Assembly: GCF_004217045.1 (NCBI RefSeq)
Contig: NZ_SGXM01000001.1
Location: forward strand, 1,798,001-1,862,000
DNA length: 64,000 nucleotides
Direction: 5' to 3'
DNA from: Cupriavidus agavae
Lineage (GTDB): Bacteria; Pseudomonadota; Gammaproteobacteria; Burkholderiales; Burkholderiaceae
The notes below the pieces were generated by a model, which saw nothing but the letters and a program-made list of their open reading frames with translations, made no database searches and had not been told where the DNA came from. A program made the position numbers and the translations under genes. Below are positions 20,377 to 25,941 of the stretch, in pieces; the first letter of the stretch is position 1, and each line of letters starts with the position of its first letter.

Positions 20377-21837
20377 ATGAACGCCGGCGATCTCGGAATC
20401 CGCAACCTGGCCACCGCGCAGCAACTGCTGCTGGCACCGTACGGTCTCGACGAGGCCAAGCTCCAGCGCGTGCTGGCCGACATCTTCACCCACAAGGTGG
20501 ACTACGCCGACCTGTACTTCCAGCACACGCGCAACGAGGCGTGGAGCCTTGAGGAAGGCATCGTCAAGTCTGGCAGCTTCAGCATCGACCAGGGCGTGGG
20601 CGTGCGCGCCGTCTCGGGCGACCGCACGGCGTTTGCCTATTCGGACGACATCAGCCTGGCGGCACTGTCGCAGGCGGCGGCCGCCACGCGCACGATCGGC
20701 AAGACCGGCAGCGGCCGCGTCAAGGTGGCCGGCGCGCTGGCCTCGCAGACGGGGCGCAACCTGTACACGCCGAACGATCCGCTCGATTCGATGACCGCCA
20801 CCGAGAAGGTGGCGCTGCTGGAAAAGATCGAGAAGATGGCGCGCGCCAAGGACCCGCGCGTGGTGCAGGTCATGGCCGGCCTGGCTGGCGAATACGACGT
20901 GGTGCTGGTGGCGCGCAGCGACGGCGTGATTGCCGCCGACGTGCGCCCGCTGGTGCGTGTGAGCGTGACCGTCATCGCCGAGCAGAACGGGCGCCGCGAG
21001 ATCGGCTCGTCGGGCGGCGGCGGCCGCTACGCCTACGGTTACTTCACCGACGAACTGCTGCGCAAGTATGTGGACGAGGCCGTGTCGTCGGCGCTGGTCA
21101 ACCTCGAAGCCCGCCCGGCCCCGGCCGGCGCGATGACCGTGGTGCTCGGCCCGGGCTGGCCCGGCGTGCTGCTGCACGAGGCCGTGGGCCACGGGCTGGA
21201 GGGCGACTTCAACCGCAAGGGCTCGTCGGCCTTCGCCGGCCGCATGGGCGAGCGCGTGGCCGCCAAGGGCGTGACCGTGGTGGATGACGGCACGATTGCC
21301 AACCGCCGGGGCTCGCTGAACCTTGACGACGAAGGCAACCCGACGCAGTGCACGACGCTGATCGAGGACGGCATCCTGACCGGCTTCATCCAGGACACGC
21401 TCAACGCGCGCCTGATGAAGATGCCGGTCACCGGCAACGCCCGCCGCGAGAGCTACGCCGCGCTGCCGATGCCGCGCATGACCAACACCTACATGCTCAA
21501 CGGCGACAAGGACCCGGCCGAAATCCTCGCCAGCGTGAAGCGCGGACTCTATGCCGTGAACTTCGGCGGCGGCCAGGTGGACATCACCAACGGCAAGTTC
21601 GTGTTCTCGGCCAGCGAGGCCTACATGATCGAGGACGGCAAGATCACGTACCCGGTCAAGGGCGCCACGCTGGTCGGCAACGGCCCGGAATCGCTCAAGG
21701 ACGTGACGATGATCGGCAACGACATGCGCCTGGACTCGGGCGTGGGCGTCTGCGGCAAGGAAGGCCAGAGCGTGCCCGTGGGCGTGGGCCAGCCGACGCT
21801 GCGGATCGAGAACATGACGGTGGGCGGGACGGCGTAA
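20377..21837 (+). CDS. tldD: Metalloprotease TldD
   Basis: TldD is the zinc metalloprotease subunit that works with TldE/PmbA to degrade unfolded peptides and, in some bacteria, mature peptide antibiotics. The 486-residue product contains the HExxxH zinc site in [18 protein letters not shown] (about residues 265-282), [19 protein letters not shown], and the C-terminal [29 protein letters not shown] precedes the ATG at 20377. A TldE partner is not in the window. It converges on the methyltransferase gene, with one copy of the dispersed palindrome between. Confidence 0.95.
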
Positions 21838-21904: not shown

Positions 21905-22960
21905 CTACGGCCTCACCTCGTACACCAGGTTGAACGGCGTCTGCGCCGCCCGCCTGAAGCTCCCGAATCCCCCCTGCTCCGTCACGCCGCGCATGCGCGC
22001 CTCGCCCGCCTGGGCGCCCAGGCACATCGCGCCCTCCTGCGCGCGGGAACCCGGCGTGCAGATGAACGTCGACGCCGAATAGAACACCCTTCCCACCGGA
22101 TTCAGATTGTCCTGCAGGTTGTCGTTTGCAAACGGCTCGACGATCATCCAGCAGCCGTCCGGCTTCAGGGTCTGGCGGATATGCCGCGCGGCGCCGACCG
22201 GATCGCCCATGTCGTGCAGGCAGTCGAACACGGCCACGAGGTCATAGTCGTTTCCTGAAAAATCCTTGGCCGATGCCACTTCGAACGTGACACGATCGCC
22301 CACGCCGGCGCGCCGGGCGGCGTCCGTGGCATAGCGGATCGACGGCTCGTGGTAGTCGAAGCCGCGGAAAGTCGAGGCCGGAAACGCCTGCGCCATGATG
22401 ATCGTCGAGGCGCCATGGCCGCAGCCGACATCGGCCACGGTGGCGCCCGCCTCCATCCGCGCCGCCAAGCCTTCGAGCGCCGGTATCCACTCGTCCACCA
22501 GATGGGCCGCGTAGCCGGGCCGGAAGAACCGCTCCGTGCCATGGAACAGCGACGGATCATGTTCGTGCCAGCCCAGGCCCCGCCCGTTGCGGAAGATGTC
22601 GAGCATGCGGGGGATCGCGCGGAACTGCGCCACGGCAATCTGGAACGCGCCCGGGATGAACGCCGGACTGCCCTCCTGCGCCAGCGCGAACGCCTGCTCC
22701 TCGGTCAGCCAGAAGGTGTCCTGGCCGGGGTCGTACTCCACGTAGCCGCTGGCCGCCTGGGCCGACAGCCACTCGCGCAGGTAGCGCGGATCAGTCCTGG
22801 TCTTGGCGGCGAGCGTGTCGGCGGTCATCGGCTTCTCCGCCAGCGCCTTGTAGAGCCCCAGTTCGTCGCCCACCACCACGGTGGCGGCGTGCATCACCGC
22901 GCCCAGATCCTGGACGAACTGCCCCATGAAGGCATTGAGCCTTGCTTCATCGACTGCCAT
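21905..22960 (-). CDS. SAM-dependent class I methyltransferase
   Basis: This 351-residue protein has an N-terminal winged-helix dimerisation region (about residues 20-90, VGDELGLYKALAEKPMTADT and DPRYLREWLSAQAASGYV) and a Rossmann methyltransferase domain with SAM motif I at VADVGCGHGASTIIMAQAFP (about 175-195) and VFDCLHDMGDP. This arrangement resembles small-molecule O-/C-methyltransferases related to the UbiE and hydroxyneurosporene types; the substrate is unknown. I start at the ATG at 22960, preceded by GGGGGAAG about 6 bases upstream. The open frame continues well upstream but that part is not protein-like and crosses the aroG leader. It is divergent from the aroG control region. Confidence 0.85.
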   Translation of the reverse strand: MAVDEARLNAFMGQFVQDLGAVMHAATVVVGDELGLYKALAEKPMTADTLAAKTRTDPRYLREWLSAQAASGYVEYDPGQDTFWLTEEQAFALAQEGSPAFIPGAFQIAVAQFRAIPRMLDIFRNGRGLGWHEHDPSLFHGTERFFRPGYAAHLVDEWIPALEGLAARMEAGATVADVGCGHGASTIIMAQAFPASTFRGFDYHEPSIRYATDAARRAGVGDRVTFEVASAKDFSGNDYDLVAVFDCLHDMGDPVGAARHIRQTLKPDGCWMIVEPFANDNLQDNLNPVGRVFYSASTFICTPGSRAQEGAMCLGAQAGEARMRGVTEQGGFGSFRRAAQTPFNLVYEVRP

Positions 22961-23074
22961 GATCGCTTCCCCCATGTGGATTCTTGTCGGGGGCGCCCGC
23001 CCATCCCAGGCGTCCGATTCCAATATAGGCAGGCGGAATGCTCTGCATTCGCTTAAATGCGATGCAGTTGCCGC

Positions 23075-23103
23075 TTGCAACCATTCCGGAAAAGCGATAT
23101 AAA
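23075..23103 (+). promoter_or_regulatory. Candidate sigma-70 promoter upstream of the aroG leader
   Basis: TTGCAA (23075-23080) and TATAAA (23098-23103) are separated by exactly 17 bp. Transcription would start near 23110 and give a leader RNA of about 330 bases containing the aromatic leader peptide and attenuator. A TTGACA at 23145-23150 is also present but lacks a well-spaced -10 box. Confidence 0.45.
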
Positions 23104-23254
23104 GATGCTTCGTTGCGGCGCACGCGGCGATTGCACCCCGGCCTTTGACAGACCCCGGCGCAATAAAATGCCTTTCGATCACGCGCCGCAGCATAAATGT
23201 CACGCATCCGCGTAAAACCGACACAAGCTGACCCTGCCCACTTCGATTTCCGCC

Positions 23255-23326
23255 ATGACCGCCAAGTTTTACTTTTACTTCTTTTGGCATCTCACACCGC
23301 TGGCGGATAGAGAGGGACGGATGTAA
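23255..23326 (+). CDS. Aromatic-rich leader peptide of the DAHP synthase gene
   Basis: A 23-codon ORF encodes MTAKFYFYFFWHLTPLADRE plus GRM. Seven consecutive codons, Phe-Tyr-Phe-Tyr-Phe-Phe-Trp (23267-23287), specify all three aromatic amino acids, the end products of the pathway that the downstream gene initiates. This is the signature of transcription attenuation, as in the E. coli pheA leader. Ribosome stalling at these codons would expose the downstream segments to the alternative fold described at 23299-23375. The Shine-Dalgarno before the ATG is weak. The stop codon TAA lies 23 bases before the terminator hairpin. I am confident in the reading frame; the regulatory role is inferred. 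Confidence 0.82.
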   Translation: MTAKFYFYFFWHLTPLADREGRM

Positions 23327-23375
23327 GCAGACCCCGAATGCAAAAGAAACCGCCAGCAACCCTGGCGGTTTTTTT
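23299..23375 (+). promoter_or_regulatory. aroG attenuator: alternative antiterminator and terminator hairpins
   Basis: The terminator stem pairs ACCGCCAG (23349-23356) with CTGGCGGT (23362-23369) around a 5-base loop and runs into seven T residues (23369-23375). Its 5' arm can pair instead with GCTGGCGG (23299-23306) through a perfect 8-bp match to CCGCCAGC (23350-23357), forming an antiterminator. A further copy, CCGCCA (23259-23264, inside the leader ORF), can pair with TGGCGG (23301-23306). All four segments of a classic attenuator are therefore present in the correct order. Confidence 0.82.
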
Positions 23376-23441
23376 ATTCCCGCCACGACTGCGACGCACC
23401 ATTCCAACAGAATCCACACCTCACAAGAACCCGGAGCCATC

Positions 23442-24521
23442 ATGCTGAAGAACACCGACGACCTGCGTATTCGAGAACTCAAGGAACTGCTGCCCCCGGC
23501 GCACCTGATCCGCGAGTTCGCCTGCTCGGAAGCCGCGTCCGACGTGATCTACGGCGCCCGCCAGGCCATGCACCGCATCCTGCACGGCATGGATGACCGC
23601 CTGATCGTGATCATCGGCCCGTGCTCGATCCACGACACCAAGGCGGCGCTGGAATACGCCAGGCTGCTCAAGGTGCAGCGCGACCGCTTCGCCGGCGAGC
23701 TGGAGGTGGTGATGCGCGTCTATTTCGAGAAGCCGCGCACCACGGTGGGCTGGAAGGGCCTGATCAACGATCCGCACATGGACGGCAGCTTCAAGATCAA
23801 CGACGGCCTGCGCACCGCCCGCGAACTGCTGCTGAACATCAGCGAAATGGGCGTGCCGACGGGGACGGAATATCTGGACATGATCAGCCCCCAGTACATT
23901 GCGGACCTGGTCAGCTGGGGCGCCATCGGGGCGCGCACGACCGAATCGCAGGTGCACCGCGAACTGGCGTCGGGGCTCTCCTGCCCGGTGGGCTTCAAGA
24001 ATGGCACCGACGGCAACGTCAAGATCGCCGTGGACGCCATCAAGGCCGCGTCGCAGCCGCACCACTTCCTGTCGGTGACCAAGGGCGGCCACTCGGCCAT
24101 CGTGTCGACCTCGGGCAACGAGGACTGCCACATCATCCTGCGCGGCGGCAAGGCGCCGAACTACGACGCCGCCAGCGTGCAGGAAGCCTGCGACGCGATC
24201 TCGAAGTCCGGCCTGGCCGCACGCCTGATGATCGACGCCTCGCACGCCAACAGCAGCAAGAAGCACGAGAACCAGATGCCGGTCTGCGAGGACATCGCTC
24301 GCCAGATGGCCGGCGGCGACCGCCGCATCATCGGCGTGATGGTGGAATCCCACCTGATCGCCGGCCGCCAGGACCACGTGCAGGGCACGCCGGTGGAAGA
24401 CCTGACCTACGGCCAGTCCGTCACGGACGCCTGCATCGGCTGGGACGACTCGATCGGCATCCTGGAAACTTTGGCCAACGCCGTGAAACAGCGCCGCCTG
24501 GTGCCCGGCAGCGGCAACTGA
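23442..24521 (+). CDS. aroG: 3-deoxy-7-phosphoheptulonate synthase (DAHP synthase), class I
   Basis: DAHP synthase condenses phosphoenolpyruvate with erythrose 4-phosphate, the first step of the shikimate pathway. The 359-residue protein is full length for the AroFGH class. It shows RIRELKELLPP near the N-terminus, IIGPCSIHD, the YFEKPRTTVGWKGLINDP block, GARTTESQVHRELASGLSCP, VGFKNGTDG and the metal-binding IDASHANSSKKH. Which aromatic amino acid inhibits it cannot be read with certainty. GGAG lies about 7 bases before the ATG. Upstream is a leader peptide plus attenuator, so expression is probably tuned by aromatic aminoacyl-tRNA levels. A strong terminator follows. Confidence 0.95.
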   Translation: MLKNTDDLRIRELKELLPPAHLIREFACSEAASDVIYGARQAMHRILHGMDDRLIVIIGPCSIHDTKAALEYARLLKVQRDRFAGELEVVMRVYFEKPRTTVGWKGLINDPHMDGSFKINDGLRTARELLLNISEMGVPTGTEYLDMISPQYIADLVSWGAIGARTTESQVHRELASGLSCPVGFKNGTDGNVKIAVDAIKAASQPHHFLSVTKGGHSAIVSTSGNEDCHIILRGGKAPNYDAASVQEACDAISKSGLAARLMIDASHANSSKKHENQMPVCEDIARQMAGGDRRIIGVMVESHLIAGRQDHVQGTPVEDLTYGQSVTDACIGWDDSIGILETLANAVKQRRLVPGSGN

Positions 24522-24591: not shown

Positions 24592-25941
24592 CTAGGCCAG
24601 TTCCATGGCGGCGAGACGGTCTGCGGAGGCTTCAAGCTGTTCGAAGATGGGGTCCGCGACGCGGGCAGGAAACCCTTGCGGCACCCGCCCCGCCACCTCG
24701 GCGATGGCACCAGGCAAGCGTTCCAGAAGACCGGTCAGGACTGGCTCGGCGGACGTGCCGACGTAGCAGCGCCGCGCCATAGCGTTGAAATGGCGGCGAC
24801 GAATATCGCGGAGCAGGAAGTGGCGATTCTTGCCTGACACGGCCATGGCCAGCTTGACCCGCTGATGCGGCACTTGATTCGGTCCGTTGCCCACGATCGG
24901 CCAGACCGACATGATGTCGTACAGCGGCGCAAGCCGGAAACGGCCGCCGGGCAGAAGATGGATGCTGAAGTTCTTGGCATGCCCGTCCGTGGCAGCGAGC
25001 ATCCAGAACACGATCTGCGCGGCGAGCAACGTGTCGAGATCGCGCCCGGCGTTGACCGACTGCCGCAGCACACCCGCCAGATCCGTCATGCCGGGACCGC
25101 CGTCCGCCTCATATTTCAGATGCGAAGGCAAGCCCAGCGCCTGGCAAAAATCCTCCTGTGGCAGACGCATGATCCAGGTGCCGCTCGAATGCATCTGCCG
25201 GTCGAAGCGTTTCACGGATAGCACGCGCTGCGTGCCGAACGTCAGCATTTCGCAGTCGGCCGCCGGCAGGCCCAGCGCCTGCACCATCTGCATGCAGAGC
25301 CATTCGTTCTCTACCGAAGTCGTGAGGTCCGCGCGTCGGTTGCCGACCAGTCCGATCGGCATCTTCAAGATGTGAGTGGTGGGCGTGGCGCCCCGCGGCA
25401 GCATCCACTGCCCGCCGTGAACCAGCAGCGCCGTCTTTTCCTGCATTCCGGCGATAGAAACTCGGAAATCTACGATTTCATCGATCCCGAGGGGCCCCGG
25501 CGCGGTCACCGTGCGCGAGAGCAACGTCTCGATGTCTTCGTCGGACAACGGCGTACCTTCGATGCGCTCTATGTTCTCCGGCTCCTCATCCTCGCCGAGC
25601 ATTTGCACGGCGCCAGTACAGTCCCGCCCGATGGCCGCGAGCAGATCGAACGCATCGGTCGAACTGGTCCGGTGCCGGGCGGCCAGCCGGCGGCGGATGA
25701 CATCGCTGTCCGGCAGGAGATTGTCGAAATAGTTGAGGACGGCCTCGCCCCGCAGCGGGCCGGTGTCGATACCAAACGGCAGCGAAAGGGACAGCGGTCG
25801 ACCGGCGGCCGACGCCATCCACGCTGCATCGTAGGAAAATTCCATCCCGGAGCGCGCCGGGATGCGCCACGTTCCCACGCGCTGTCCGTTGGTCCAGACA
25901 GAAATCGCCCGGCCTTTCGACGGTCTGCCCATCTTTACCAC
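24592..25941 (-). CDS. hipA: Type II toxin HipA (serine/threonine kinase)
   Basis: HipA kinases phosphorylate targets such as glutamyl-tRNA synthetase and induce growth arrest until neutralised by HipB. The 449-residue protein keeps the key residues: the autophosphorylation-loop serine in VSIAGMQEKTAL (Ser162), catalytic Asp319 with Asn324 in ATDGHAKNFSI, and metal-binding Asp342 in LYDIMSVWP. HipA N- and C-lobes are both present, so it appears active. Its start overlaps the end of hipB by 7 bp, the usual coupling. An alternative start three codons on (MGRPSKG) is possible. Third-position bases are visibly less G/C-biased than in neighbouring housekeeping genes, consistent with acquisition by transfer. 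Confidence 0.93.
   Translation of the reverse strand: MVKMGRPSKGRAISVWTNGQRVGTWRIPARSGMEFSYDAAWMASAAGRPLSLSLPFGIDTGPLRGEAVLNYFDNLLPDSDVIRRRLAARHRTSSTDAFDLLAAIGRDCTGAVQMLGEDEEPENIERIEGTPLSDEDIETLLSRTVTAPGPLGIDEIVDFRVSIAGMQEKTALLVHGGQWMLPRGATPTTHILKMPIGLVGNRRADLTTSVENEWLCMQMVQALGLPAADCEMLTFGTQRVLSVKRFDRQMHSSGTWIMRLPQEDFCQALGLPSHLKYEADGGPGMTDLAGVLRQSVNAGRDLDTLLAAQIVFWMLAATDGHAKNFSIHLLPGGRFRLAPLYDIMSVWPIVGNGPNQVPHQRVKLAMAVSGKNRHFLLRDIRRRHFNAMARRCYVGTSAEPVLTGLLERLPGAIAEVAGRVPQGFPARVADPIFEQLEASADRLAAMELA

Follow-up and report, generated by a model that had tools for sequence, protein, structure and literature searches.

The interval 23255–23375 of the window (the whole 64,000-nucleotide stretch of Cupriavidus agavae DNA analyzed here, corresponding to positions 1798001–1862000 of contig C1 in a 5.79-Mb assembly) is very probably a ribosome-mediated transcription attenuator of the trpL/pheL type, which would control the downstream gene for DAHP synthase, the enzyme at the entry to the shikimate pathway, and be derepressed when charged tRNA-Phe or tRNA-Tyr runs short. 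An earlier sequence-only reading had proposed an aromatic attenuator at this position, and the alignment of relatives that it suggested as a check supports the proposal, with leader codons, antiterminator, and terminator all being conserved. The features of the locus are as follows:

23255–23326, plus strand: leader peptide ORF, MTAKFYFYFFWHLTPLADREGRM (ATG at 23255, 23 codons, TAA at 23324–23326), kept in relatives
23267–23287, plus strand: control codons Phe-Tyr-Phe-Tyr-Phe-Phe-Trp (leader codons 5–11; TTT TAC TTT TAC TTC TTT TGG)
23250–23264, plus strand: putative segment 1 (protector), CCGCC at and just past the leader start, from the minimum free energy (MFE) fold
23290–23313, plus strand: local hairpin TCTC...GAGA enclosing segment 2, from the RNAalifold consensus
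23299–23306, plus strand: segment 2, antiterminator 5′ arm, GCTGGCGG, a perfect 8-bp complement of 23350–23357
23350–23357, plus strand: segment 3, CCGCCAGC, both the terminator 5′ arm and the antiterminator 3′ arm
23362–23375, plus strand: segment 4, CTGGCGG and a T7 tract (predicted intrinsic terminator; stem alone about –18.0 kcal/mol)
23433–23436, plus strand: Shine–Dalgarno GGAG of the DAHP synthase gene, from the sequence
23442–24521, plus strand: AroG-type 3-deoxy-7-phosphoheptulonate synthase, the putatively regulated gene (NCBIfam NF006723; AroG relatives in the PDB)

Direct reading confirms the 23-codon leader with its seven consecutive aromatic codons, the perfect 8-bp alternative partner of the terminator 5′ arm, and the CCGCCA at 23259–23264, all of which had been picked out in the sequence-only reading. 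The terminator proposed there likewise holds, at 23350–23375: its stem pairs CCGCCAG (23350–23356) with CTGGCGG (23362–23368), is lengthened by A–U pairs, and is followed by the T run at 23369–23375. The gene downstream scores 595.9 bits against NCBIfam NF006723 (cutoff 568), and the enzyme is 97% identical to the DAHP synthase of C. pauculus (locus L032). The nearest ORF to the left of the leader is methyltransferase-like, lies on the minus strand, and is transcribed away, while tldD, whose end is at 21837, is the nearest recognized upstream gene on the plus strand; thus, no other gene is apparent that the terminator could serve. We note also that a minus-strand gene for a HipA-family protein (window 24592–25941; HipA N-terminal domain over cutoff) adjoins the 3′ end of the DAHP synthase gene.

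An aromatic run of this kind is not a matter of chance. Across all six frames of the 64-kb window there is one run of at least five aromatic codons, which is that of the leader, and the pattern (TWY)6, i.e., six Phe/Tyr codons, has one forward match (the leader) and no reverse match in the 5.79-Mb genome, compared with zero and one match for the reversed-pattern control. To place the leader among its relatives, we used 210 DAHP synthase loci, made up of the 80 highest-ranking of 591 named loci (and hence close relatives) and 130 order-sample loci, with some genomes present in both sets. An order-wide sample of 300 genomes gave 233 with a DAHP synthase match, of which 129 supplied the order-sample loci; these combine the 30 best matches with 100 from the further matches listed, so that they are tilted toward closer relatives. 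When ORFs of 8–60 codons upstream of the 210 loci were scanned, one with at least six aromatic codons in eight was found at 111, against 0/210 on the reverse strand and 3/1050 in dinucleotide shuffles; at a threshold of at least five in eight, the corresponding values are 129/210, 1/210, and 26/1050.

A leader together with a matching terminator precedes DAHP synthase at 79 of the 80 named loci, the exception (L095) being an Oxalobacteraceae MAG, and at 46 of the 130 order-sample loci, with 84 being without the element. These 46 belong to 8 of 25 families (f1 6/6, f8 8/9, f10 8/8, f4 7/9, f13 6/7, f23 6/6, f20 4/6, and f43 1/3), and the order-sample loci of the other 17 families gave 0/76, where the family labels were transcribed by hand, the named loci were assigned to f1 or f8 by hand, and only families with a DAHP synthase match are counted. 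Some aromatic-rich ORFs were rejected as leaders: in three f28 loci (L181, L188, and L196) the aromatic codons form, or adjoin, the U tract of a more upstream terminator, and the ORF of L157 (f38) is without a CCGCC/GGCGG terminator and looks like a false positive. In a f4 genome of about 2.0 Mb (G053, locus L117), an end that resembles tldD by eye is followed by the promoter-like TATGCTAGGAT and then by the start of DAHP synthase, with neither leader nor terminator in between, and the attenuator looks to have been deleted from this small genome.

For comparisons between elements, the definition of at least five aromatic codons in eight plus a hairpin gave 128 elements, which became 120 upon removal of exact duplicates and of L120, L157, L181, and L188, for which the routine found no credible terminator; the terminator of L120 is visible by eye, and this locus is positive in the family tally above. 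L196 has no terminator, L034 is too short for promoter scoring, and L144 has no kernel for the segment 1 test. Kernel and covariation analyses dropped 9 of the 120 elements and used 111, and the alignment behind the codon comparison, RNAalifold, and the covariance model (A1) holds 43 of 60 own-family elements. Shuffles in the antiterminator duplex, Shine–Dalgarno, promoter, and segment 1 tests preserved base composition only.

Within the 43 own-family sequences, variation at Phe and Tyr codons is mostly synonymous (TAC/TAT, TTT/TTC). The leaders are rich in TTT (395 TTT and 99 TTC over the 120 elements), whereas DAHP synthase (0 TTT, 6 TTC) and tldD (1 TTT, 10 TTC) in the window are rich in TTC, and thus the leader codon choice is unlike that of these two genes. 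An exact GGCGG is present in the leaders of 115 of the 120 elements, and 111 have all three kernels exact (that of the leader and one in each terminator arm). In most of these 111, the leader reads its kernel in one codon frame, ..G GCG G (104), but GGC GG. occurs in 4 and.GG CGG in 3, such that 7/111 differ. In two loci, from Candidatus Burkholderia humilis (L046) and Caballeronia megalochromosomata (L064), the leader frame shifts past the aromatic run, with the terminator and the GGCGG kernel being retained, which is possibly decay or a tolerated change.

The antiterminator (2:3) and terminator (3:4) pairings are mutually exclusive, and in the window the isolated energies are balanced, at –17.3 kcal/mol for 1:2, –18.7 kcal/mol for nascent 2:3, and –18.0 kcal/mol for 3:4. 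RNA folding had been suggested as a check in the sequence-only reading. The fold of 23230–23390 is unusually stable (z = –3.54 against dinucleotide shuffles, 0/200 equally stable), but the complete leader favors the terminator over the antiterminator in its MFE fold, as do RNAs begun at 23282 or 23297 in imitation of a stalled ribosome, and the antiterminator is preferred only in nascent RNA ending at 23361. Thus, antitermination would have to be co-transcriptional. The antiterminator duplex itself is strong in the window (row L002; –18.5 kcal/mol, 0/200 shuffles as good) and in 86 of the 120 elements, though not in the other 34, it outscores 95% of mononucleotide shuffles. In the densest window of codons, the first aromatic codon lies 31 nt and the last 13 nt ahead of the predicted duplex (18–43 and 3–22 nt, respectively, across the elements). 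At this spacing, stalling in the run would leave segment 2 largely free, and a ribosome that has reached the stop codon would cover segment 2 or lie beyond it.

Compensatory change is clearest in the terminator, where A–U pairs become G–C at columns 146:167 (4 rows) and 152:161 (3 rows) of the alignment, and where flank pairing is 0.90 compared to 0.72 when permuted (0/2000 permutations). Covariation in the 2:3 flanks is modest, with 0.51 compared to 0.42 when permuted at position –1 (reached by 2.3% of permutations), 6.3% of permutations at position –2, and 1.9% at position –3; over the 111 elements, there is none at positions +1 and +2. The four TCTC/GAGA pairs around segment 2 are standard in all 43 own-family rows of the RNAalifold consensus. 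The CCGCCA at the leader start, which the sequence-only reading had taken as the first of four classical segments, fares less well in that role: its pairing with segment 2 exceeds 95% of shuffles (at most 10/200 as good) in 27 of 60 own-family elements, but in 0 of 59 elements tested outside the family, and a start-codon segment 1 is not supported as a general feature. Elsewhere, segment 2 is predicted to fold back on other upstream parts of the leader. The prediction that the kernel is paired upstream when no ribosome is present extends to all eight families, with family means of 0.54–0.97 that carry no shuffle control.

From this arrangement we infer how transcription start, ribosome stalling, termination, and the response to each amino acid would be connected. 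RNA polymerase would start upstream of the leader ORF, and when charged tRNA-Phe or tRNA-Tyr (in the window genome perhaps also tRNA-Trp) is short, the ribosome would stall in the aromatic run, leaving GCTGGCGG free to pair with the nascent CCGCCAGC before the terminator closes; once this antiterminator has formed, transcription would continue into DAHP synthase. With sufficient aromatic amino acids, the ribosome would pass segment 2 and reach the stop codon, the terminator would fold, and the transcript would end near 23375. Termination would also be expected when the leader is not translated, with upstream leader sequence holding segment 2.

How the leader is translated bears on this scheme. 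A Shine–Dalgarno core precedes the leader start in 6 of 120 elements (5 of 120 in shuffles) and is absent from 114, including the window leader, compared to 112 of 120 DAHP synthase start regions, which were scored over a longer, 30-nt stretch. Since the window leader has no recognizable Shine–Dalgarno sequence, its efficient translation is an assumption. We scored promoters with approximate –35/–10 position weight matrices, with which the predicted –10 box ends a median of 38 nt before the leader ATG in f1 (59 loci; at most 5/50 shuffles as good in 46 of them) and a median of 33 nt (range 22–66 nt, 29 loci) in f8, where the best pair has TTGCCA or TTGCAT. It lies much closer, 6–10 nt before the ATG, at 22 of 27 loci in five other families (f4 6/7, f10 5/7, f13 6/6, f23 4/6, and f43 1/1), and at 18 of these 22 at most 5/50 shuffles were as good; the 4 loci of f20 have no –10 position so close. 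A –10 box at this distance would place the RNA 5′ end at or next to the start codon, which implies that the leader mRNAs of f4, f10, f13, f23, and f43 are leaderless, as predicted from their sequences, and on such nascent mRNAs, loading of the sensing ribosome would have to occur at the 5′ end or close to it. In the window itself, no sigma-70-like promoter passed consensus in 22950–23460, and our own scorer found no consistent box in Cupriavidus.

The element appears to be single-copy, with a single apparent target. R1, the covariance model built for the own-family element, scores 144.6 bits at the leader, which is the one full-length match in the window genome, and 31.1 bits at the next site. 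This second match is partial (model positions 46–148) and lies on the minus strand at G000:C1:1988133-1988222 (locus L303), in surroundings that comprise, by eye, an aldehyde-dehydrogenase-like and a CBS-domain-like ORF. Of 200 family genomes, 161 have an R1 match at E ≤ 0.01, a few of these matches being weak. Fourteen genomes searched closely have one strong full-length match each, with further matches being weak (28.1 bits over the full span in G317, the rest partial and mostly at the terminator end), and in 10 of the 10 genomes in which both were located, the full-length match lies 52–99 nt (coordinate difference) upstream of DAHP synthase. In the window genome, PF00793 matches two proteins, namely this DAHP synthase and KDO8P synthase, PF01474 has no match, and one DAHP synthase gene is thereby detected. 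Neither TrpR (PF01371) nor TyrR (TIGR04381) has a match there at E ≤ 0.001, in a search whose E. coli positive control works, and this fits the suggestion in the sequence-only reading that attenuation is here a different solution from TyrR/TrpR control. As the sole DAHP synthase detected is preceded by this leader, and the two regulators are without matches, the leader is the leading candidate for end-product control of expression.

Three other explanations deserve to be weighed against this reading. That the hairpin is an ordinary or bidirectional terminator insulating DAHP synthase from other transcription, with the aromatic ORF a coincidence, seems to us extremely improbable. The stem does sit between A and T tracts, and a consensus terminator scan lists it on the minus strand only and does not call it on the plus strand, a miss we explain by most of the T run being able to pair into the stem. 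However, there is no plus-strand gene directly upstream for it to insulate against, the aromatic ORF is kept across genera through synonymous changes such as those described above, and of the 50 order-sample loci at which an aromatic-rich ORF occurs, 46 have the matching terminator as well. A much closer contender, which is compatible with an attenuator, keeps the same leader and terminator but restricts sensing to Phe and Tyr, the Trp codon of the window being incidental; we regard this as quite possible, if slightly less probable than its opposite. The densest 8-codon windows of the 120 elements (which were themselves selected for at least five aromatic codons in eight) contain Phe in 120, Tyr in 114, and Trp in only 59, Trp makes up 61 of the 799 aromatic codons in the leaders, and several close relatives, including some Cupriavidus species, have Ser-Asp in place of Trp-His (SDL for WHL). 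Moreover, the aroR leader of C. glutamicum (Phe-Tyr-Phe) responds to Phe limitation but not to Tyr, according to the review PMC11802643. Against this, many leaders from Burkholderia, Paraburkholderia, and Caballeronia keep a Trp codon at one constant position, and the 13 nt between the window Trp codon and the predicted antiterminator duplex are inside the range for a last control codon. The proposal of the sequence-only reading that one leader senses Phe, Tyr, and Trp together may hold in the window genome, but it is not what the elements at large conserve, Trp being optional.

The remaining alternative is that a DNA-binding regulator exerts the main control and the attenuator is a minor modulator, which we consider unlikely. 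It draws on published lacZ reporters in R. solanacearum, in which aroG1 and aroG2 each rise ∼10–20 fold upon deletion of the other gene and then fall 2–3 fold with 1 mM Phe (PMC6379268). In that study, whose Table 2 has no Tyr or Trp test, aroG1-lacZ in rich medium goes from ∼47 to 702 Miller units upon aroG2 deletion and to 316 with 1 mM Phe, aroG2-lacZ from 49 to 1072 upon aroG1 deletion and to 353 with Phe, and the wild type changes little with Phe (aroG1 47 to 40, aroG2 49 to 41); the words "leader" and "attenuat" are absent from the text. The aroG1 result is what attenuation predicts. In six Ralstonia-type genomes (g152), however, the aroG1-type gene has the leader in 6/6, identical to that of the named R. 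pickettii locus (L041) save for one residue in one genome, whereas the aroG2-type gene has it in 0/6 at the threshold of at least five aromatic codons in eight, so that aroG2 is rejected as a second attenuated copy. This second DAHP synthase (L265–L269 and L272) is 57% identical and has an N-terminal extension. Since aroG2-type genes respond like aroG1 but are without the leader, other control must exist there, and the reporters do not single out attenuation; we note that they are from R. solanacearum, while the leader comparison is from the g152 genomes, with the link to R. solanacearum itself presumed. The absence of TrpR and TyrR matches from the window genome, which concerns these two regulators only, and the wide occurrence of the element in the family genomes both argue against a minor role. 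We thus retain an attenuator derepressed by shortage of charged tRNA-Phe or tRNA-Tyr as the preferred reading, with the leader being an alternative to consider for the published Phe-responsive Ralstonia reporters.

An attenuator of this classical type is nothing new as such; the Burkholderiales DAHP synthase leader is very probably a real one, and we did not meet it among the matches listed in full-text searches, which covered freely accessible article text. The accessible parts of PMC2965389, PMC1262725, PMC5343134, PMC5688073, and PMC3766115 contain no such case, with PMC5688073 placing 82 short 5′UTRs of B. cenocepacia in a supplementary table. The closest known system is aroR, the leader that precedes the DAHP synthase operon (aroF) of C. 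glutamicum (Neshat et al. 2014, via the review PMC11802643), which shares Phe and Tyr codons, ribosome stalling (predicted here), and a DAHP synthase target, but is actinobacterial and has Phe-Tyr-Phe only, as opposed to the runs here, which reach eight aromatic codons and occur in many Burkholderiales. An Rfam search of the window element returned only subthreshold matches, to Phe_leader and Leu_leader, with RF01859 (Phe_leader) reaching 24.5 bits (E 0.11) on 23254–23377, below the gathering score of 55. The E. coli pheL-pheA leader of that family is likewise Phe-rich with a terminator and antiterminator, but targets pheA, whereas the leader here is Tyr-rich, precedes DAHP synthase, and differs in sequence. 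DAHP synthase is also the target of attenuators predicted for Shewanella aroF ("attenuator sensing tyr-tRNA") and aroH (PMC2659441) and for Vibrio aroF-tyrA (PMC1173090), and of one hypothesized for E. coli aroF (PMC8632094); as far as the accessible text of these sources goes, these cases are listed or hypothesized, and a mixed-aromatic leader is not described. The Acholeplasma uORFC-13-1 motif before aroF similarly combines a short ORF containing Phe with a terminator and is predicted only, but it comes from another phylum, has an RBS and at least one Phe codon, and is confined to Acholeplasma and environmental sequences (PMC8632094). Finally, the RNA 5′ end of Sinorhizobium meliloti trpL is the leader ATG, as predicted here for five families, but this leader is Trp only, targets trpE(G), and has been shown experimentally (PMC7298713).

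Taking these comparisons into account, we see an even chance that the elements form an unnamed class of attenuator, widespread in Burkholderiales, with combined sensing of Phe and Tyr (and in some cases Trp) by one leader peptide at the first step of aromatic synthesis, almost always without a Shine–Dalgarno sequence and leaderless in five families. Known rnTrpL acts in trans, and if the class reading is true, termination would yield a small leader mRNA with a possible role in trans too. The leader provides testable predictions for many species, including metabolic-engineering hosts of the group, and the elements are a natural set of Shine–Dalgarno-less and predicted leaderless attenuators for studying the coupling of translation to the nascent transcript.
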